Below are positions 672 through 64,000 of a stretch of DNA of 64,000 nt, one piece after another. The notes below the pieces were generated by a model. It made no database searches. It was not told the origin of the DNA and saw only the letters and a program-made list of their open reading frames with translations. This stretch comes from Medicago truncatula (Eukaryota > Streptophyta > Magnoliopsida > Fabales > Fabaceae), in NCBI RefSeq assembly GCF_003473485.1, contig NC_053047.1, positions 3,983,001-4,047,000 of the forward strand, given 5' to 3'. The translations under genes and the position numbers were made by a program. Numbering within the stretch: position 1 is the first letter of the stretch; every line of letters starts with the position of its first letter.

Positions 672-1179
672 TCAGGAAAATAAAAAGAGAAATTGAAAAA
701 TCGAACAAAACATGAACCAAAAATCAGCAAGCATTGAAAACCAAACCTTTTTGGATTGTTGCACTTTATCTAGTAATGGTGGCATTGCCATATAATGAGG
801 CATAGAAATTTGGAACCAAGGGTGTTGGTGTATTTCAAGTATGGTAATCCTCTTCGTTGGATCCACCTCAAGCAGCTTTGTAATCAAATCACTAGCACCA
901 GGTGATATATAACTAGGAATAGTGTATATGCCACCCTATGTAAAGATGAACACAGAAACATGATTAAATCTCTTTGTTGACAATATAATGGAAGAGACAA
1001 ATTCCATTAGAATAAAGGGATTCTCGTAAAGAAGTATCTCAAAGGTATGAATACCACAATTAACCACACAAAATTGAACTACCTTACATGTTAATAATCC
1101 TCTCAAAACAAAAGTTAATGATAATATTTTTTTTTTATCTAAACATGCTAATAATAATTAAAAAAAAATTATCCATATG

Positions 1180-1345
1180 GGGTTGGTTTAACTATCTTAG
1201 AGTTTGCTCCTCTCAAGGTCTTAGGTTTGATTTCCTCTGATGTCAACTTCATGGAAAGTCCATACAAAGCTTTGTTTTGGCTTAAATTGAGGCCCTCACA
1301 AGTGGATTTTGGAATTGGTCCCCTTGAATTAGTTGATTCTTAAAT
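1180..1345 (+). repeat. SINE-like tRNA-derived retroposon (Au-like)
   Basis: A box-B-like stretch 'ggtcttaggtttgattt' followed by a conserved tail resembles the segments at 43.2 and 61.4 kb. It lies in intron 4 of the degenerate SnRK1 copy. Clear target duplications were not found, so the limits are approximate. Confidence 0.5.
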
Positions 1346-1389
1346 ACTGAGTTTTCAAAAATAATAATAATTAATTCTCTTAAAATTAT

Positions 1390-2332
<943 letters not shown>

Positions 2333-2389
2333 TCAAAACAATTACCTCAATTTTTTAATAAAATTACAATCCAATTTTATTTAAAATCA

Positions 2390-2743
<354 letters not shown>

Positions 2744-3601
2744 CTACTATGTAATCAAAAAGCTCCCCAGATTCCATATACTCCATAATAACATATATAT
2801 TCGTTAGGGTTTCTATCACCTCATAAACTTGTATAATGTGAGGATGCCTTAACAATTTTAAAGTATTAATTTCTCTTCTTACTGCAACAAATTGAAGAAT
2901 TAAAATATTGTAAGCAATCTTCTTCAAAAAAATTATTGTAAGTGTCTATAATCAACTCCAGAATTAAATTGTAAATGCTCATAATTGATATAGATACATA
3001 TCATGTTCTTGAAGTTTACAATTAAATTGCTAGTGCTCATAAGGTGTTTGTAATTGATTGACAATGTAAAAAGATGAACATTGATTGTGCATCAAAACTA
3101 ATCACTAAGTTTAATAACTATACATAAATAGTATAATCACATTTCATTATATTGGTACATCACAATGTTACTTCTCAAAACTAATTGACACTAAGATTAT
3201 GAAATATGTTTGTACATATGCATAATTTTTTTACAATAATACTCGCAGATCCTATTTATAAGGAATTTTTAAGTCAACAAAAGAAAATATATTTAAATAA
3301 AAATTTGGATTAAATATATCGATTTTTGTAGACCAAAACGTCTTTTATAAATAAGATCAGAGGGAGTAGTTACCATACTCGAAAATTGTTGACATACAAA
3401 TAACATGGTACCTTTTTCTTCCATTTGTGTATTCTCTTTCCAACGGCAATCAATGAGATATATGGCAACTTTTTCACCAGTCAATACATTCTCTGCTAAC
3501 CTCACCTTGCCAGAGGACCAATGGTACAATGTCTTCACCAATTTATAATTTGTTAGACATATGTCTACACTTCCTCCAACAATGCTATTTGATCCGTCCA
3601 T

Positions 3602-5950
3602 TTTCAAAATCTAGAGGAAATTTCATGGGGGAAAATTTAATGAAAATTAAACACATAATCATGGATGTACACATACAAAATAGATTTAAGACTTTCACAC
3701 ATCATAAGACTTGTTGTTCAAACAATTGTCGTTCAAAAAAATATGTATCTTCTTGATTTGTCATGACAAGAGAACAAGAGATTTTCATGATTTTTGTTAT
3801 ATTAATAAAGAGCTCTTGTAATCATTTAGTGGGGGTTTGGATGCCCATTTGCACCTTGAATATCACGTTTTGATGCATTTTTAGATGTGAAAATGGAAAA
3901 GCCACAATATGTAGCGCCTTCATGGCTGAAGCACGTTTAGAGCAATTGTGTGGTGGTTTCAAACAAGCACTTATTGCATCAAAATATTTTTGAATAGATA
4001 TATACACTATGAAAGTTATATTTTACAATGTCAATCAATTATAATGATCAAATCATTAAAAGTGTTTCACTTTAATCATAACTATTTTGAAGTCACATAT
4101 ATGATTAGGTTATGATTTGCTGAGCGTATAAACGTGTTTTAACAATATATCAAAATCAAACTCTTTCTAAATTAGCATTAGTCGAATTATTATCAAGTAT
4201 TTAAAGGGAATAATGATTTCCAATTAGCTTCTAAAAAACTATAATTATAATTACTTTCATTCATGAATAAAAAGTTGTTTTTATTATTGTGATCAAACAA
4301 AAACTGACTTTTGCTTTGTATAAAAAATAAAATAAAAAATTACATAGATTGAAAAATTGTTCTTTTCAAAAAGATTAAACAAACAGCTCAAAATTCTGCA
4401 TAAGAAGTTTCATATGGGAAAAATTAAATAAAATAAGTTTACAATTGAATCTGCTAATTTACTGAATGGTCAAACAGGCTAAATAAATTGGTGAATTTCC
4501 TGGGAAAGTCTAAAATGGATCATCAAATTTGAAGGTAAATCCTAGCCTATAGTTCAAAAATTTGGAAGGATTGCAGTTGCCTAAACATTATGATAAGAAA
4601 TTAACAAAAGGGAAGGAACTAATAAGAAGAGTACAGTACCTGTAGAGTAAATGAGTACTTAGGATTGGTATATAGAAACTGATAATAATTGAGTTTGAGG
4701 AAACAGTGAGAAATTGGAAGAATCCACAAGTCTAATAATAAAATGAAGGAAGAAACAAAAACTAAAAAACAACTATGTAAAAAACAAAGATAACTAGTGA
4801 AGAAAACAAAGAAAGTAATAATATTTTCTTTCTTCTAATTGGCTTGCGTCTGATTTCAGGTAACATCTACATACCGTTGATTCTAACGAGTCATCATTGT
4901 TCATATTTATTTACTTTTCTACCAATTGGATAAAGATCATCTCCATTTATAAAAATAAATAGAAGATGCCAGTTAGAAAGAGATACACACAATAGAATGT
5001 TTGTTTGATGTGCTCATCCATTCAAAAAGAAAGAATGTTTGTTGTTCTCATTCATCATTTGATTAAAAACAAACTAAGATTGGACATAATTTCCCCTTCT
5101 CCTGCATATTATTATTACGTGTCGACCTAGTCGTGATGCTCAGTTCCTTGACGTCCAACTCACTTTTAAAAAAAAAAGATTAAATCAAACTAATCATACA
5201 AATTCTTTTGTTCTAAAATTTAGTTTCTTTTTGTTTTTGTAACTTTGTTAAACAAGTCTCATGAGTTTTCATATGTTATGATATCAAATGTCTCAACTAC
5301 TCTTAACATAACTTAGACTCTTTTTTCCATTTCCTCTAAAGCTACATTAATAATAGCATACAAAAATACACCTTTTTGTTTTTATGAAAAGATATACAAA
5401 ATCTAATCAGACTTTAATTATGTTCTTGGCATATTTTCAAAATATACGCATAAATAACATGTTAAAATATTTTATTCCTGGTAGATATATTTTTCCTCCA
5501 AAGACATTCATCCATACACTAACTTCTAAATCGAATCAAAGACATAATGAATACTTAAAACTTGTCGATCATAAAATATTTACAAATCACACCCAAAAAA
5601 GCATTCTACCATTAAGTTTTTTATTTTTAAAAACAATAATAAAAGTAACAAATATGAGCAGTCAAATTACACAAGCATACCAGCAATATGTAATGCAAGG
5701 CGAGTGGGGAGAAAAAGCTAGTCTGCAAGCTCATGTTCGACGCAGATTAAGCAAACAACCCCACAGCATCCCGGTAATAAATTGTCGATTACAACATTAG
5801 GTCAATGCCATAAATAACTGTGTCTAATGAGGAATATTCTTCAAATAAATTCCCAGAGATTTCACAGGATTGAAAAACACAATTCACTGTGAAAAGGGGA
5901 GTGAATACCAATTATAGGATTGCCCCATAATCATGATCAACCGATTAAAA
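3602..5950. other. Non-coding interval between the two SnRK1 copies
   Basis: The leader-intron acceptor of the degenerate copy ('ctag' before the 5' UTR, about 3602-3613) is preserved as in the intact gene. Beyond it I see no GA-rich leader exon like that at 13.45 kb. A 138-codon open frame at 5384-5800 has no recognisable domain and AT-rich composition; I do not call it a gene. Confidence 0.4.
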
Positions 5951-6066: not shown

Positions 6067-11759
<5,693 letters not shown>

Positions 11760-11767
11760 TTTCAAAA

Positions 11768-13530
11768 TCTAGAGGAAAATTCAGAAAGAAGCAATATGAA
11801 ACTCAGACTCAGAAGCATATGAAAATGGATACACGCGTAAAATACAGATTGGAGCCATCATTGGAAATGAAATCTAATACATAAATGAAAGGATCATATG
11901 CAAAGTGATTAAAAAATGCCAACAAATTTAATTGGTGTCCACAGCATAATTTTCCTCTAATAAGTGATGAGTTCTAATCGTGTTTTAAAACACATTTAAT
12001 AATTTACTTTATTGAGTTAAGGGAATATTTTAACTTTGACTACCTTAAACAATGTATATAACCAGATGCAAACAACAACGATCAGAGAAAGCAAAATAAG
12101 TATACTTATTTTCTTTATAAGGCTACAGTATAGCACGTGAAGCCCGTTAATTTCACAGAAAGTATCATCTCATAATTGCCAGCATTTGGTGTACTCAAGA
12201 ATTATACTTTTTCTTTTATTTAGTTGGTATACAAAATTTTAAATACAATAGAAGAGGTAACAAAAAAGAAGAAATTGACACATCAGATACGCCAAAGAGT
12301 GAATCTAAAGCACCAAGGTAACGCATCGAGGTGTTGTCCCTCTAAGTTAGGTGCATGCCCATGGGAACTTTGACAAGCATTACTAGTTCAAACAAGGCAT
12401 TTCCTATTGGCAGCTGTTAAAAGACCACTATTCTAATTCGCTCGTTCTGATTCTAATAAGGTAAAACAGTCCATCCGGCCCTGTTCAAAAAAATATATTG
12501 TTCAGTCTTTTGGCGCCGTTCATCAATTCGATATACAAATTATCAGCACCTCTCGCATAAATGCCACAAAAACCCACTAGGGTTTTGACCTTAAATCCAT
12601 GTTTAGTTAGTGTACAAAATTCTACCTACCAATAGAATACCATAGAAGAGCCAACAGAAACGAGGAAACCGACACATCAAATACACCAAAGAGAAAATCT
12701 AACGCACAAAGTTAACGCACCGAGGTATAGTCCCTTTAAGGTAGGTGCATGCATGTAGGACCTTTGGCAAGCGTTACTAGTTCAAGCAAGGCATTCCTTA
12801 TAACCACGTCCTAATTTGCTCATTTTTTATTCTAATAAGGTAAAACAGTCCCGCCAACGGTTAATAAAATTATAAAACAAACAGGTACATCTTTGGCGCC
12901 TTTCTTCGATTATAGATACAAATCATTAGCACCTCTCGCATTAATACCCCCCAAAACCCTCTAAGGTTTTTACCATTAATCAACCTTTAACCACACCATA
13001 CTCCCCTCTTCTCAAAAACCTTGACCTTAGATAAAAACCATATTTTTTTCCCTTCCACTACACTTACAACGAATACATGAACCCTCCTCAATACCATAAT
13101 TTTTTACTACTCAAAAACCATCATCTCATACAATTACCTCAATTTCTTTCAATTTTCTACACTAACCTAAAATCTAACCTTAACAAAATTCAATGATTTT
13201 TTTTCCATCTACAATAACACAATTAACAATAAACACATTTCAATTAACAATAATCGAGTAAAAAACTTCAGAAGCTCGAATTGAATGAATTCAAATTGAA
13301 AAAAATAAATCAAATCATAAAAATCAAATCTTTGCATGATAAATTCACAAATTCATCAATGAAGCAATCCAGATTCAAAAATCAACGAATCAAAACGAAT
13401 AACAAATTCACGAAAAGCAGAAAAATAGAGAGAGAGAGAGAGAGGGCTCACCAGAGATTAGAGAGAGAAAATCGAAGTTGCAGAGAGAGAGTGAAGAAAA
13501 AAACCCTAAAAAGGTGAAGAATGAATGAAA
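11768..13530 (-). promoter_or_regulatory. SnRK1 non-coding leader exon and leader intron
   Basis: Immediately upstream of the start codon, 'ctag' at 11769-11772 makes a splice acceptor, and at 13452/13451 'TCTG|gtgag' makes a donor following a GA/CT-rich leader with a telo-box-like AAACCCTA on the plus strand near 13500. This implies a first non-coding exon of about 80 bp and an intron of about 1.68 kb, as known for Arabidopsis KIN10. The transcription start is not visible; the promoter should lie right of 13530. Confidence 0.65.
12224..12985. repeat. Tandem duplication of about 380 bp inside the SnRK1 leader intron
   Basis: Two diverged units, about 12224-12604 and 12605-12985, share ordered landmarks: 'gacacatca', 'aacgca.cgaggt', 'taggtgcatgc', 'tactagttca', 'taataaggtaaaacagtcc', 'ttggcgcc' and 'agcacctctcgcat'. 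They lie wholly inside the intron. Plant leader introns often enhance expression, so a duplicated block here may matter, but no function is shown. Confidence 0.85.
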
Positions 13531-51639: not shown

Positions 51640-52605
51640 CTTCCAATTTCCTTCATGCTAGCATTAATTCTTCACCACTCTATAATCACTGTGAAGTATT
51701 AACTCTAACCACTAATATGAGGCTCTTGCATGGATGTTCAGAAAATGACTTTCAAGAAAGAAAGGATTTTAGTGAGTGGGTGCTTGGAATTGGTGATGGA
51801 AGCATTAGTGAGGAAAATGATGAGGATATTCAAGTGCCAATTCCTGAAGATCTTCTTATACACCGTTCAGGTGATTCTGTTGCAGCCATTGTTGAATGCA
51901 TTTATACATCTCTTTTAATGAACATGCATGATACATCGTTCTTCCAGGATAGAGCTATATTGACACCTAAATATGTTACTTTTGAAGAGATTAATCAATA
52001 TGTTTTATCTCTTATTCCTAGAGAAGAAATAACATACTTAAGTTGCGATTCGCCTTTAGCTAACCCTTCCATGGTGAATAGGCCCGATGTTGTCCACACT
52101 CCGGAATTTCTTAACACCATTACTACATCAGGACTACCTAATCACAAAATCAAGCTAAAAGTTGGAGTCCCTGTGATGTTATTGAGAAATTTGGACCAAT
52201 CCGCAGGCCTATGTAATGGTACAAGATTGATAATTACAAATAACGGGTATATATGTTCTTGAAGGGAAGATGATAACAGATAGCAACATTGGTGATAAGG
52301 TATATATACCAAGGCTGTCACTAACACCGTCGGATACAAGGATACCGTTTAAGTTCCAACGCAGACAGTTTCCTCTATCTATATGTTTTGCAATGACAAT
52401 CAACAAGAGTCAAGGACAATCACTCAAACAAGTGGTTGTGCATCGTCCTCAACCCGTATTCTCTCATGGTAAACTTTATGTCGCACTATCCAGAGTGACC
52501 TCCAGGAGTGGTTTGAATATTTTAATGACTGATGAGAATGGAAAAAGCATGGATAGCACTTCGAATGTAGTTTACAAGGATATTTTCTGCAATCTACCAA
52601 CCTAA
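51640..52605 (+). pseudogene. Helitron Pif1-type helicase, C-terminal fragment with one frameshift
   Basis: An open frame reads from about 51660 (HASINSSPLYNHCEVLTLTT) through NMRLL, FSEWVLGIGDG, FFQDRAILTPKYVTFEEIN, LKVGVPVMLLRNLDQSAGLC and NGTRLIITN. It shifts by one base near 52245-52255, then continues as GIYVLEGKMITDSNIGDKV, FKFQRRQFPLSICFAM, TINKSQGQSL, HGKLYVALSRV and VVYKDIFCNLPT with a stop at 52603-52605. These are helicase motifs toward the C-terminus of Helitron Rep/Hel proteins. The HUH Rep domain and the Walker A and B motifs are missing, so the copy is dead. Confidence 0.9.
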
Positions 52606-54839: not shown

Positions 54840-55162
54840 AATAGTCTAGTGGTGGATTTGTGTTGCTTGCTTGTTGAGAATTGGTGGATAAGCTTTTGAG
54901 TCATGTCTTGGCATCCAGTAATCAAGAATCGGGGAAGGTTCATGAACCATCTTAGGGCGGCTTCCTTCAAGGTTTCAGGTAACAGCTTGCACTTGAGGGA
55001 TTCAGAAGCTCCGATTACTGCCATCTGTGTGTTGAATGAGGTTACGTGTTCCACGGGGTCACTCTTGCTGACGAAGGTAGCCAAGGAGGGGGACTTAAAA
55101 TTTTCAAGAACGGGTGCAATCCAAATGTTGGATGACAAGGGCTGGGGATCAGGCTCGTCCAT
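54840..55162 (-). pseudogene. Ty3/gypsy gag fragment
   Basis: The minus-strand frame from 55162 reads as a plant retrotransposon gag domain: SKSDPVEHVTSFNTQMAVIG, SLKCKLLPETLKEAALRWFM and LIHQFSTSKQHK, typical of gypsy gag. It then runs into the CT/GA microsatellite. No protease, reverse transcriptase or LTR adjoins it. Confidence 0.8.
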
Positions 55163-55937
55163 CTCCTCCTGGTGGATATCATCTCGCTCTTCATAATGTT
55201 GTGGATCGTCGTTAAATCAAACATCAAACGGGATGCAAAAAAAACTGCAAATGTGCCGGTTTGAAAGGAAACTAAAAACATCCCCTAAACAAATTTATGC
55301 TGAAAGCGTTGTTTTAGAAATATATAAGGTCAACAAAATTCTTTTTTGACCGAACCAACGTCTAACGGCATCTACTTTTTCAATATTTCCACCACCTGCA
55401 AATGTGCGACCTATGTCACTGTCACTATGATTTTGCATAATTTTATTTGTCAAAGTCAAAGCATTATTCAATAAAACATAACTTTCACTGCAAAAAGTAT
55501 TTACATCTTAATATATTTAGGGTAGAAGTATAATAATAAACAAGGTCAAAATAAGGTTTTTCAAAATGTTAACTAATTTTTTAATTAATAATTTAAATAA
55601 AAATGATAAAATGGTTTAAATGGATGGATATAATTGAAAGGAAAACATTTGAGTCCAAAAGGGTGTATTCTCTACATATTGATAAAGAAAAATAGATAAC
55701 ATTTTTCTATTATAGTGGATTTGTGCTATTTTAATGTGATTTAGTTTTTTTTTAATTAGTAATTTAAATAACATTATAAAAGGACAAAATAGCAAAGAAA
55801 TTGATAGATATTACGGTGGGACTCATTCTAATTAACAAAGTAATACTTCTTGTCCAAACAACATCAACACCTCTAGCTTAAACATGTTGTTACTATCCTT
55901 GATTTTTCCTTTTATGCTGGTCTTAAATAATCATGTA

Positions 55938-56850
55938 CTAGATTTTAAACCCGTGCTCCGCTCGGGTTTATTGTAAAGGGATTGACATACGAATAATAAA
56001 ATGCAATATATAATTAGTAACGGTGAAAAAAATAAGTTGTAAGGTCACATCTTTCCATTTGCAAAGCTCTAAATATCAAAATATATGATTTTTGTGTTGT
56101 GTGTGAAATTTTTACACGGTTTAGGGTTTTTTATTTTGTTTTTAGAGAAACACGTTTAGGGCTTGGTATATATAACCAAGTTTACATGGAAATTAGGTTA
56201 GCCGAATTTGCATGAAAATTAGGGTATTTTGTTTGTAAACGTATTAAATAAGTGTAGAAAATATGGTCAGAAAAAAAGGCAACATGATAGGAATGAAATA
56301 AAGGTATAAAATTGGTTCGAAAAAAAAGTGTACAAAGTATTGTAAAATAAAAGGCATGAAATTAGTGCGATGAATTTTTCTAGTATTGTGTACAAAATAT
56401 TGTCAAAAAAAAAAGACAAGAGGATAGCAAAAAAAAAAGGCAAGAGGATAGAAATGAAATTGGTGCGATCCATTTTTTTGTATTAAATAAGTGTACAAAA
56501 TATTTTCTTAAAAAAGAAAGTGTACAAAAAATTGTCACAAAAAAAAATCCAAAAAAAAGTATAAAATAGAAGGCATCAAACGTGATCATTGATATGCTCA
56601 TAGTTTCTAGAAAAAATATGCAACATCAAATAATGTAGAAAATATTTCCTTCAAAAAAAAAAGGCAAGAGGGTAGAAATGAAATTGGTGCGATGCATTTT
56701 TTTAGATGGAATTTGTTAGCTTAAATAATTGCAAACATAATAAAGCAAATTAATGAACGGAAAAAAATTAGGTTAAATTGCTGCAGACCTAACAAAATTA
56801 ATAAATAAGGATTAGTTAAACCTAGAGAAATTCTTAGTTACACATATGTA
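55938..56850 (-). mobile_element. Helitron 3' end on the minus strand, non-autonomous
   Basis: On the minus strand, AACCCGAGCGGAGCACGGGT forms the terminal hairpin (stem ACCCG/CGGGT), then TTAAAAT, then CTAG at 55941-55938, with host T next. The element extends rightward through a tract of 'gtgtacaaa.tattgt' and 'ggcaagaggatagaaatgaa' repeats (56230-56710). The 5' end is not resolved. Confidence 0.65.
56230..56710. repeat. Irregular tandem repeats inside the second Helitron
   Basis: 'Gtgtacaaa.tattgt' plus A-run, 'ggcaagaggatagaaatgaa' and 'attggtgcgat.catttttt' recur at least three times with variable A-tract spacers (about 56270, 56400, 56440 and 56660). Internal variable repeats are common in non-autonomous Helitrons. 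Confidence 0.7.
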
Positions 56851-56889
56851 AAAAGCTCTCTTGTTATGGTTAAATATGATTGGTTTTAA

Positions 56890-57596
56890 AAAGAGTAAAT
56901 TACACTTCCCTCCTCTCAAAGATGCTTAAATTACACTCCCCTCCCCTCTTATGTTAAAATATACACTCCCCTCCCCTCCCCTCTTATTCAAAACATGTTA
57001 GAAAACTTTTCACTCCCCTCCCTTAAGAGAAGCTTGAATTACATTCTCCTCCCCTCTTATGTTAAAATCTACACTTTACTCCCTCCATATTTTTTTTTAA
57101 TTTCTAATAATCTAGCAAAAAAGTAATAATCTAACATACTTTGGAAAAAAAATAGTATTGCGGGTCTATTTTAATATAATAAAAAATTGAATACATATTT
57201 GTTTGCTATTTTTTATTCACAATTTCATTAACATGTAGTTTTAAACCCTATTATAAAATATGAAACAACCCAAAATAAAATTAAAATTTGTGAAAAATTA
57301 CTAAAGACAATAAAACATGATTATTTAAAAGTTAATTTTATACTCTAAATTATAAAATCAATAGCAAAATATTTAAATCTAATTATCATTGAAATTTAAA
57401 TTATAAAGAAATGAATTAGAGTGTAGTGCATATTTAATTATTAAGGGAGTGAGTTGTAATTCAAACATCTTAATAAGGGAGGAGAGTATAAATTTTACTT
57501 TTCAAAGGAGGAGAGTGTATATTTTAACATAAGAGGGGGATAGTGTAATTCAAACATCTTTAAGCGGAGGAGAGTGTAATTTACTCTTTTAAAAAT
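56890..57596. mobile_element. MITE or foldback element with inverted ends of about 90 bp
   Basis: The left end 'aaagagtaaattacacttcc', followed by 'aaattacactcccctcccct' and 'gttaaaatatacactc', is mirrored by the right end 'gagtgtatattttaac', 'gtgtaattcaaacatcttta' and 'gagtgtaatttactcttt'. The centre (57090-57420) is AT-rich without coding frames. Target duplication is uncertain. Confidence 0.75.
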
Positions 57597-57599
57597 GAG

Positions 57600-58200
57600 C
57601 ATGAGGAGAAAAAGGTTGTTTGATAGAAGTGATAGAGTCGGTTTAATAATGTTATGCAGGCAATTATATGTTCCAATAAAAAGTGGAGAGAGTGGTGTGC
57701 AAACAGTTACTTGTGTAATTGCATTTAATAGCTTTTAACAATCAGTTCAATATATGGAATTGTCAATCGTAATTTTCGCGAAGATTTCCTTCGCTACCCT
57801 TATGACTGACTCGTGCCCCTTAAACATATGGTTAGGGGTTTGATTTATGACTCATATATACCTATCTTGAGTGTCCCACATATTTATGGATGGAGATTAG
57901 TTAATGGTAGCGGTAGAAACTTCATACCAATATTATTGTAATAAAAAAAAAAATCTTAGGTAAACTTTACTTCAAAGAACTCGAATTTAATTTTTAGATA
58001 TAATAATTTTTAGACAAAATTTATTTATCTTTCTATCAAACCCCAAATTACTATGACATTTCTCATGTAAACTAGAGGGTTAACATCCAAAAAAGAAAAG
58101 GAAAAAAAAAAACATACGAATGTTTATTAAAAAATAAATATAAAAAACAAGCTAAAGAGTAAAAAAAAATTATAAAAAAAGAGAGAGAAAACCATAGCAA
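57600..58200. other. Non-coding interval, possible decayed SINE
   Basis: No gene is seen. At about 57800-57950 'gttaggggtttgatttatga' followed by a region ending in an A-run loosely resembles a SINE box B and tail. I could not confirm box A or target duplications. Confidence 0.3.
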
Positions 58201-61430: not shown

Positions 61431-61560
61431 AAATCCACTTGAGTTGGTCTAGTGGTATTATTGGCTTGAAACCTAGGAGTGTGCTCCTCCTTAAGATCTC
61501 AGGTTCGATTTTCTCTGGTGTCAATTTGAAAGGGTTGGTTTAGTTTCTTCGAAAAAAAAA
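61431..61560 (+). mobile_element. Au-like SINE with 16-bp target duplication
   Basis: Box A-like 'gagttggtctagtgg', box B-like 'caggttcgattttctc', a tail 'tagtttcttcg' and an A-run. It is flanked by perfect 16-bp ACTAATTAAAAGTTTG at 61415-61430 and 61561-61576. Confidence 0.93.
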
Positions 61561-61770
61561 ACTAATTAAAAGTTTGTTTAGATTAATTAGTGGATCAAAT
61601 TTTTTAAGCAAACGAGTGGATTGAGAGAGACAGAGAAGTACATGCTAGCCCCCTGGAAATGGTCCCCCACTCCCCACAAACAATATCCTTTTAAACATAC
61701 AAGCCATAACAAACTTTTACACTTTCCTACTAGTTGAGACTGCTAAGTTGAGACTTAAACCATAGAGACT

Positions 61771-62105
61771 TATAGTCGGAAACTATACTTTTGGACTTAA
61801 AGTCGGAAGCCATAGTTTACCTGCTGAAACCATAAAGACTTAGAGCATTGTCTCAAAAGTATAGTTTCCGGGCTTTAAGTTTCTATGAGCCACCATATTG
61901 CTGTGAATCAGATAATCTTGATGATTTGTCACAACAATATGGTGGCTCATGGCTCATATATAGAGACTTAAAGTCGGAAACTATACTTTTGGACTCAAAA
62001 TTCAATGTCAAGATTACTAATTTTGGCTTTAGCAACACAATGCAGCATGATCGGTTACTTAAGACAAAGTTGTGAAAGTCTTAACTATGCAGCTCTAGAG
62101 GTTTG
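61771..62105 (+). pseudogene. SnRK1 exon 3 fragment arranged as an inverted repeat (hairpin)
   Basis: The right part (61910-62105) reads in plus sense as exon 3 of the SnRK1 family ([36 protein letters not shown]) and is closest to the degenerate copy at 2402-2584, sharing its ETILLDSKF and SNTMQH changes. The left part (61853-61905) is an inverted copy of the same catalytic-loop segment. The arms 61853-61905 and 61929-61992 pair over about 53 bp, with a bulge of about 11 nt and a loop of about 23 nt. A further partial copy of the arm lies at 61771-61800. The exon is frameshifted after KTK, so no kinase can be made. It is a potential small-RNA precursor; expression is unknown. Confidence 0.85.
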
Positions 62106-62384
62106 TAAAATATTGTTTGATCGTAATATTTTTAAGGAAAAAATGGATTGTAATTGAATAAATAGCCGGTTTAAAATATTATAATTTAAAAAAATGAATA
62201 AAATGAGAAATTACTATTAATTAATAAATAAAAATGATATTAATGATTATGGTATTTTTTTTGGTTACAAATGATTATGGGATTCAAACTATATCCCTTG
62301 ATTGTACGAAAAACCATATCTTTTGATATTACAAAATCAGCTCATACCAATGAACTACACCTCTTTTTTTTTGAAGGAGAGCTA
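62106..62384. other. Non-coding spacer
   Basis: AT-rich; no gene seen. A poly-T plus 'gaaggaga' word at about 62364-62380 echoes the SINE tail remnants at 32.05 and 61.08 kb. Confidence 0.35.
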
Positions 62385-64000
62385 TGTAACACCCCGTTAT
62401 CCAAAAGCAATTAAATAACAAATATTTATCAGAGTAATTCCACAACGGCCATGCTACACGTCATTTCAAAATTTCTTAAATAGAAAATAAAACTATTTAG
62501 TCAAACAACTTGATATATATGAAAACATAGCAACAGAATAGTTTTCAAATCCATAACCTCATGAACATCCAACAACAGTCTATGGCATTAAAGACCTTAG
62601 CATAAGTCAACATCATTGTTCAAAAGACAATAAAAGGCTCCACATCACAATTCCAAAATTTGATACATGGAAAGGAAAACAACAATAATATAAATAATAA
62701 TTCCCATCCCACGTATCAGAGCCGTAGACACGACTCTTGAGCCACCACCGACTACTCAGGATCACCTGCAAGTTACCCATAGGAAGGACAACATTTTCAA
62801 GCAGAAGGGGTGAGATTCACAACAATAAATATAGATATTAAAATCTTCAATTGAATCTAACACCCAAATCAACAAACACATCATCTTGCAAACATGTATA
62901 TGTATGTAATTCACAAGCAACAACAACATCATTATACCTCCATCACAATAAGTATATGGATACATATTCATCAACAACATCAATCATCAGATAACAACCG
63001 CAATCAACAACTAAGACTCATGCAAATGACATGACAACACTGCTAAGACAACACCTTAGACTTCTCAATAGATGCAAATATGAATGTGGTACCAAACAGG
63101 ACCGAAGCCCTCACCGCTTTTGAATGGTTAAAGCATTCATCAGGACCGAAGCCCTCACCGCTGTTGAGCAACTAGTACTCCAGGACATGAGCCCTCTCCG
63201 CTGTTTTATGCATATGCCATGGACCTGTGTATGTCTACATACAACTGACCATGCAATGCAAACTCCATGTGACTCCACTTAAACAACATGTATGATTAAT
63301 ATTTAAAACATACATTTCATTCCTCAACATCAATCAACAGAGATTCAACCATCCAGAATTATGCACAATTAAATATAATTAAGCATTAAACAACAACACT
63401 CAGTCATAACCATTCATCCAGCAAAAAATAGCACTCAGGAACTGTGCAATTCGCCAGGCGAACTACTAACTCGCCAGGCGAAAACTGCAAAGAGAGACAT
63501 TTCGCCAGGCGAACTCTCAACTCGCCAGGGCGAACGACCACTGGGTGCTCTCGGGAATTCTACAAGACAGTTCGCCAGACAGCTCGCCAGGGCGAACTAA
63601 TGGCGAAATTTCGCCAGGCGAACCAAAGGCGAAAGGGAAATGGCGAGATCATGCTGGGATGATCCGCCAGGCGAAAATACTTCCGCCAGGCGAGTCGCGA
63701 CGGTTCAGACTCGTAATTTTCTGCAATTATCATCCAAAATCCCATTTTTCTCCAATTCACTCCCCAAATTAATTTACACAGATACATAATTAAGTGTTCT
63801 ATACAACCAGAACCTAATTCTAACATCAAAATCAGGCTTACAACTTCAGAATCCCCATTTTATCATAAAACCCCAAAATCTCCAATTCCTCACCAAAACC
63901 TGTTAAATTCAAAATCAGAAATCAAAATCTATACTACTGAAGTAAACCTCACCTTTACCTTAGAATTGCAGAAAGAAATGCACAGCAATTTGTTTTTCTT
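62385..64000. repeat. LTR-like sequence (gypsy type), runs off the window
   Basis: Begins TGTAACACCCCG, a common start of plant gypsy LTRs, and continues to the window end. It contains two copies of 'aggaccgaagccctcaccgc' and a related 'aggacatgagccctctccgc' (about 63100-63205), then a cluster of CGCCAGGCG palindromes (63451-63693). No coding domain is present within the window. The orientation and the right end cannot be determined. Confidence 0.55.
63451..63693. repeat. Cluster of nine TCGCCAGGCGA-type palindromes
   Basis: Units begin at 63451, 63471, 63502, 63522, 63572, 63584, 63611, 63664 and 63683. Four are exact TCGCCAGGCGA, two begin with C, two have an extra G, and one is degraded. 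Spacing is irregular (12-53 bp), so this is not a simple tandem repeat. It is far more GC-rich than its surroundings. Confidence 0.9.

Follow-up and report, generated by a model that had tools for sequence, protein, structure and literature searches.

A hairpin in the third exon of a broken SnRK1-like gene in Medicago truncatula: probable pseudogene debris, possible small-RNA locus

The SnRK1 cluster and its hairpin

The DNA analysed here (the window) is a 64,000-nucleotide stretch of Medicago truncatula, C6:3983001-4047000, where C6 is the contig that holds it, and the element in question is an inverted repeat built from an exon of the SnRK1 kinase family. SnRK1-family sequences form a cluster of about 86 kb (C6:3983747-4069891) that extends over the window and the neighbouring stretches labelled L009-L011 and contains one full gene, one diverged paralog with an open frame and remnants from at least two broken copies, namely two of exon 3, two of exon 4 and several of exon 5. 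Searching the assembly (430 Mb, 42 contigs; all match counts are lower bounds) with positions 61771-62105 gave at least eight matches in six distinct places. Three of these places are full-length SnRK1 genes (in the window, at C6 18.0 Mb and at C3 49.3 Mb); the others are the hairpin locus, the diverged paralog and, at C6 4.0645 Mb, a broken piece. The two remaining matches are inverted ones, at the hairpin locus and at the paralog. With 61736-61912 as the query, the hairpin locus and the paralog alone were found among the matches listed (2 candidates scored).

Genome search and exon-intron comparison place the hairpin in a broken SnRK1-like copy that forms part of the cluster. Its right arm is collinear with the rest of exon 3, on to a donor at 62101 and then into intron 3, the match to which is ended by a repeat inserted at about 62384-62385. 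Positions 62222-62384 are assigned to intron 3 because the similar segment C6:4069086-4069253 stands before an exon 4 region (C6:4069599-4069783) in another broken copy. A further exon 4 region, C6:4055536-4055720, lies approximately 10 kb downstream of the hairpin, past inserted repeats, and most simply belongs to the hairpin's own broken copy. The intron behind the exon together with the exon 4 downstream indicates that the hairpin represents exon 3 of a repeat-broken tandem copy and not a stray fragment; filler DNA, or a gene fragment captured in isolation, was rejected on the same grounds. Exons 1 and 2 of the broken copy were not found in a search of the window and L009-L012, where the two genes at 1-14 kb alone have these exons, and a 12-nt trace of an exon 2 donor at 61819-61830 was dropped as chance level (E 0.42). 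The locus thus has the character of a duplicated pseudogene, an intron-bearing, frame-broken copy near its parent.

Alignment identifies both arms as SnRK1-family exon 3, closer to the diverged copy than to the full SnRK1 gene, as the earlier note on this DNA, made from the letters alone, had read them. The local matches show 82% identity to the diverged copy (over 230 nt, at about 2.4-2.6 kb) and 80% to the full gene (over 146 nt). The left arm is 92% identical to the former and 79% to the window's full SnRK1 gene, each over 53 nt, and in local BLAST it has weaker matches of 79-81% to all three SnRK1 genes. Eight changes are private to the broken exon 3 copy and two to the paralog, numbers that are small and at most suggestive of relaxed constraint in the broken copy. 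C>T/G>A changes make up 5 of the 8 polarised changes of the broken exon, too few to interpret.

The inverted repeat was found where the earlier note had placed it, with BLAST, folding and stability ranking in agreement. The plus strand of 61840-62000 folds at -77.7 kcal/mol; dinucleotide shuffling gives -31.5 +/- 3.7 (z -12.5), with none of the 200 shuffled sequences folding as well. The hairpin ranks first in stability among 1597 segments of 160 nt taken at steps of 40 nt along both strands of the 64 kb (runner-up -64.8). In a BLAST census of inverted repeats less than 500 nt apart it is fourth by score among 139 pieces. The shuffle test and the stability ranking over the 64 kb led us to reject a chance palindrome. 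The proposed pairing of about 53 bp is recovered around a 22-nt spacer, but the stem consists of two blocks divided by an 11-nt insertion of the right arm (ATGGCTCATAT), which is present neither in the left arm nor in the four other genomic copies spanning that site. Apart from this gap, the arms differ by three substitutions and one 1-nt gap. Both of the arms originally described are real, but they do not make up the whole element: the exon 3 segment occurs a third time nearby, as a direct copy (D1; Table 1).

The diverged paralog at the other end of the window retains GT/AG at the boundaries tested in exons 1-4 and encodes a protein 68% identical to SnRK1, with a kinase domain according to Pfam and with AMPK alpha and Snf1 nearest among solved structures. 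Three motifs, which we take to be the glycine loop, VAIK and HRDLKPEN motifs of kinases, are changed: GIGSFGKV to YHWSSGKV, the VAIK lysine to tyrosine and HRDLKPEN to HRDLKPET. UBA and KA1 exons were not found for the paralog in the next 7.5 kb beyond it (L012) using queries that detect all three full-length genes. Pairwise comparison with SnRK1 gives a nonsynonymous rate (dN) of 0.19, a synonymous rate (dS) of 0.76 and dN/dS 0.25. An open frame at this dS suggests past constraint, though a pairwise ratio gives no branch, and the gene is possibly a SnRK1 pseudokinase. The earlier note had called this copy degenerate; its catalytic motifs are indeed lost, but its frame is open (228 codons plus exon 5) and it is not a plain pseudogene.

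Table 1. Features of the hairpin locus and of the SnRK1-family genes in the window (window positions)
Feature	Position	Strand	Basis or remark
Diverged SnRK1 paralog, best-matching target	747..3605	-	open frame in exons 1-4 (228 codons) and in exon 5; catalytic motifs lost
Full-length SnRK1 alpha gene	7013..13500	-	has kinase, UBA and KA1 regions; approximate start, 5' leader unmapped
Third, direct copy of exon 3 segment (D1)	61761..61801	+	95% over 40 nt to right arm
Left arm: SnRK1-like exon 3 sequence (catalytic-loop region), inverted	61854..61906 (53 nt)	-	92% identity to exon 3 of the paralog (53 nt)
22-nt spacer: acceptor-like ATCAG and exon 3 start	61907..61928	.	by eye
Exon 3 of broken copy (psiA), stops in each of three frames	61912..62100	+	edges by eye from alignment; donor GT at 62101
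Right arm: exon 3 of psiA in sense orientation	61929..61991 (63 nt, 11 nt of it insertion)	+	alignment
11-nt insertion in right arm, nearly a local duplication; large stem bulge	61949..61959	+	alignment
Intron 3 of broken copy	62101..62384	+	62222-62384 93% identical to C6:4069086-4069253

Origin of the inversion

The motif CGGAAA is common to the three local copies of the segment, and its first G is T or C in 5 of 5 other genomic copies in an eight-segment alignment. This shared derived G suggests that the inversion arose locally: the exon at this locus, once it had split from the paralog, would have been the template for both the inverted and the direct extra copies. The argument has one site behind it, and the same single site disfavours arms copied separately from the distant paralog. 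Inverted duplication of a SnRK1-family exon, the origin put forward in the earlier note, is thus supported by the arm alignments and by the common G. The process would have been an inverted duplication within exon 3 of a broken tandem copy, most likely produced by template switching or by patchwork repair of a break inside the copy. Since the left arm is without the 11-nt insertion, the insertion is either later than the inversion or was lost from that arm. From the paralog the left arm is separated by three substitutions and 1 nt and the right arm by two substitutions and 11 nt. Closeness to the paralog therefore differs by one substitution, and by this comparison neither arm appears specially conserved. 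Neutral sites change at about 1e-8 per site per year, at which rate three substitutions in 52 aligned bases would date the inversion to a few million years ago, within a large margin of error.

Small-RNA features and neighbouring elements

Complementarity to the paralog and to each of the three full-length SnRK1 genes was scored with the standard plant scheme, in which a mismatch counts 1 and a G:U pair 0.5, both doubled at positions 2-13. On the paralog, 28 of 126 21-mers from a plus transcript (best 1.0) and 29 of 126 from a minus transcript (best 0) score 4 or less. The window's SnRK1 gene is reached at this level by 13 of 126 plus-strand 21-mers (3.0-4.0; the best has one mismatch and two G:U pairs) and by 0 of 126 minus-strand ones (best 4.5). 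Corresponding counts are 7 plus and 1 minus for the gene at C6 18.0 Mb, and 3 plus and 3 minus for the gene at C3, which provides the best score for these other two genes, 2.0 on the minus strand. None of 1000 control 21-mers from window positions 14.5-61 kb scores 4 or less. Complementarity favours the diverged paralog over the true SnRK1 genes.

Plant MIRNA genes, the sources of microRNAs (miRNAs), are recognized by a foldback shorter than 300 nt and a miRNA/miRNA* duplex with at most five unpaired and at most three asymmetric positions. By duplex shape, 44 of the 126 registers of 21 nt on the plus strand qualify and 31 of the 126 on the minus strand, both arms counted, and those spanning the 11-nt bulge fail. 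Similarity to one gene family covers the whole 53-nt arms, past a miRNA region, as in MIRNA genes of inverted-duplication origin. Of the 75 miRNA-like registers in the predicted fold, 22 (8 plus, 14 minus) score 4 or less on the paralog and a single one does so on any full-length SnRK1 gene, the one at C6 18.0 Mb, where it scores exactly 4.0. No miRNA-like register of 22 or 24 nt reaches 4 on the full-length SnRK1 genes; one of 20 nt, a length run on the window's SnRK1 only, scores 3.5. The many mismatches to SnRK1 in every 21-nt window that the earlier note named as telling against its proposal are not what was found, the 13 plus-strand matches being free of them, but the stretch that provides these matches sits opposite the bulge, and the registers scoring from 3.0 are those that span it.

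Looking beyond the stem, 131 of 481 minus-strand 21-mers from 61700-62200 score 4 or less on the paralog. Silencing of the diverged copy, also suggested in the earlier note, survives as a possibility because complementarity is good to perfect; the copy that would be silenced is, however, an open-frame gene.

At gathering thresholds Rfam reports no family on the hairpin, and a known miRNA was rejected accordingly; five sub-threshold matches there have E values of 0.0017-0.023 and 23-30 bits, against gathering scores of 50-297. Among the literature matches listed there is no report of a SnRK1-derived hairpin, the supplementary tables of novel Medicago miRNAs being outside the scope of that search. 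The only Rfam match in the window is to MIR2617, which we take to be a Medicago miRNA family (62380-62464, minus strand, 65.3 bits). This match lies almost wholly inside the repeat inserted in intron 3 at about 62385, and the related copy in L011 is without this insert near its position 2753; there are hints that the MIR2617 family is mobile-element sequence.

Other repeated DNA surrounds the locus. A tRNA-derived element resembling a short interspersed nuclear element, in which A- and B-box-like motifs can be made out by eye, lies at 61431-61557, approximately 300 bp upstream of the hairpin, and is bounded by a direct repeat sharing ACTAATTAAAAGTTTG. Pieces of 144-1225 bp from window positions 55069-57953 are repeated at 97-100% identity in L010/L011, 25-30 kb away, indicating recent duplications or mobile elements in the region. 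Open reading frames on the plus strand of 51717-52605 resemble, by eye, a Helitron-type PIF1 helicase.

Likely role of the hairpin

We regard the locus as pseudogene debris containing a hairpin, with a probability of roughly two in three; its present role would then most likely be none, the sequence being unselected and perhaps untranscribed. Several observations weigh against this. The stability of the stem is unusual for the window, and perfect 21-nt complementarity to an open-frame paralog has been kept. On the window's SnRK1, 27 of the 481 minus-strand 21-mers from 61700-62200 score 4 or less (best 2.0); these come from exon 3 beyond the stem and could arise only if double-stranded RNA formed past the hairpin itself. 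The downstream exon 4, finally, is tied to the broken copy by order and similarity only.

If the hairpin is transcribed, its stem has the length that Dicer-like enzymes need, and what they cut from it would pair well with the diverged paralog and badly with the true SnRK1 genes. An active source of small interfering RNAs (siRNAs) is unlikely but retains appreciable weight. A hairpin of about 145 nt, from read-through or its own transcription, would be cut by DCL2/DCL4/DCL3, and its siRNAs would silence both the diverged paralog and the cluster's remaining broken copies, as in the soybean CHS case. The minus-transcript 21-mers that fit the paralog perfectly, set beside controls of which none scores 4 or less, argue for it, and many more minus-strand 21-mers would fit if double-stranded RNA spread past the stem. 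The soybean CHS inverted-repeat cluster provides a precedent (PMC3534067). The stem is, however, short for this class and divided by the bulge, and Rfam is silent. A stronger version, in which the cluster polices itself and the hairpin silences a catalytically altered paralog that might disturb the SnRK1 complex while largely sparing true SnRK1, is improbable.

A young MIRNA gene regulating SnRK1 itself is more doubtful still. The shape and origin of the hairpin fit the inverted-duplication route as described in PMC1790633, and plus-strand 21-mers do match the window's SnRK1 when duplex shape is disregarded. These matches face the bulge, however, and the MIRNA-like locus against SnRK1 proposed in the earlier note is left with the one 21-nt register at 4.0 and the one 20-nt register at 3.5, the other 74 of 75 scoring above 4.

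A transposon with terminal inverted repeats, either a miniature inverted-repeat transposable element (MITE) or a foldback element, that resembles SnRK1 by accident is largely refuted: a MITE-like hairpin does occur by eye in an intron of a related copy (L011 2322-2586), but here both arms are exon 3 with the right one collinear into intron 3, the arms are matched only at the hairpin locus and SnRK1-family copies among the genome matches listed, and no target-site duplication was seen when looked for by eye at the locus. An assembly or sequencing artefact is just as hard to credit: library preparation can create inverted-repeat chimeras and there is one assembly, but chimera arms are expected to be identical and these differ by substitutions and two gaps.

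Inverted duplication is a well-documented origin of MIRNA genes, with 16 loci in Arabidopsis, and in the same part of that paper drift and death are perhaps the commonest fate of new loci, with a nearby functional promoter assumed (PMC1790633). Like Arabidopsis MIR161, MIR163 and MIR824, the hairpin is a short foldback with arms similar to one protein-coding family well past 21 nt; unlike them, it is a candidate hairpin only, has no specially conserved arm segment and carries an 11-nt stem bulge. In soybean, CHS siRNAs arise from an inverted-repeat cluster (PMC3534067). Loci of this type are transcribed inverted repeats of gene-family members that yield 21-22-nt siRNAs; of these features, the inverted repeat is present here. 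With this cluster (the I locus) the locus has in common inverted gene-family copies in a legume cluster and possible targets in the same family, whereas its SnRK1-like arms are only about 53 nt long and its siRNAs are putative. A duplicated pseudogene with a local inverted duplication is resembled in the frame-broken exon, the retained flanking intron, the inserted repeat and the broken pieces nearby, and no feature distinguishing the locus from that class appeared in anything tested.

If inactive, the hairpin would be a clean case of a functionless inverted gene fragment. An active hairpin would instead represent a small-RNA locus of very recent origin, less than 90 kb from its founder family, its siblings and its candidate target, and would be a useful place to follow the birth of MIRNA or siRNA genes and to see whether these tell functional genes from altered paralogs.
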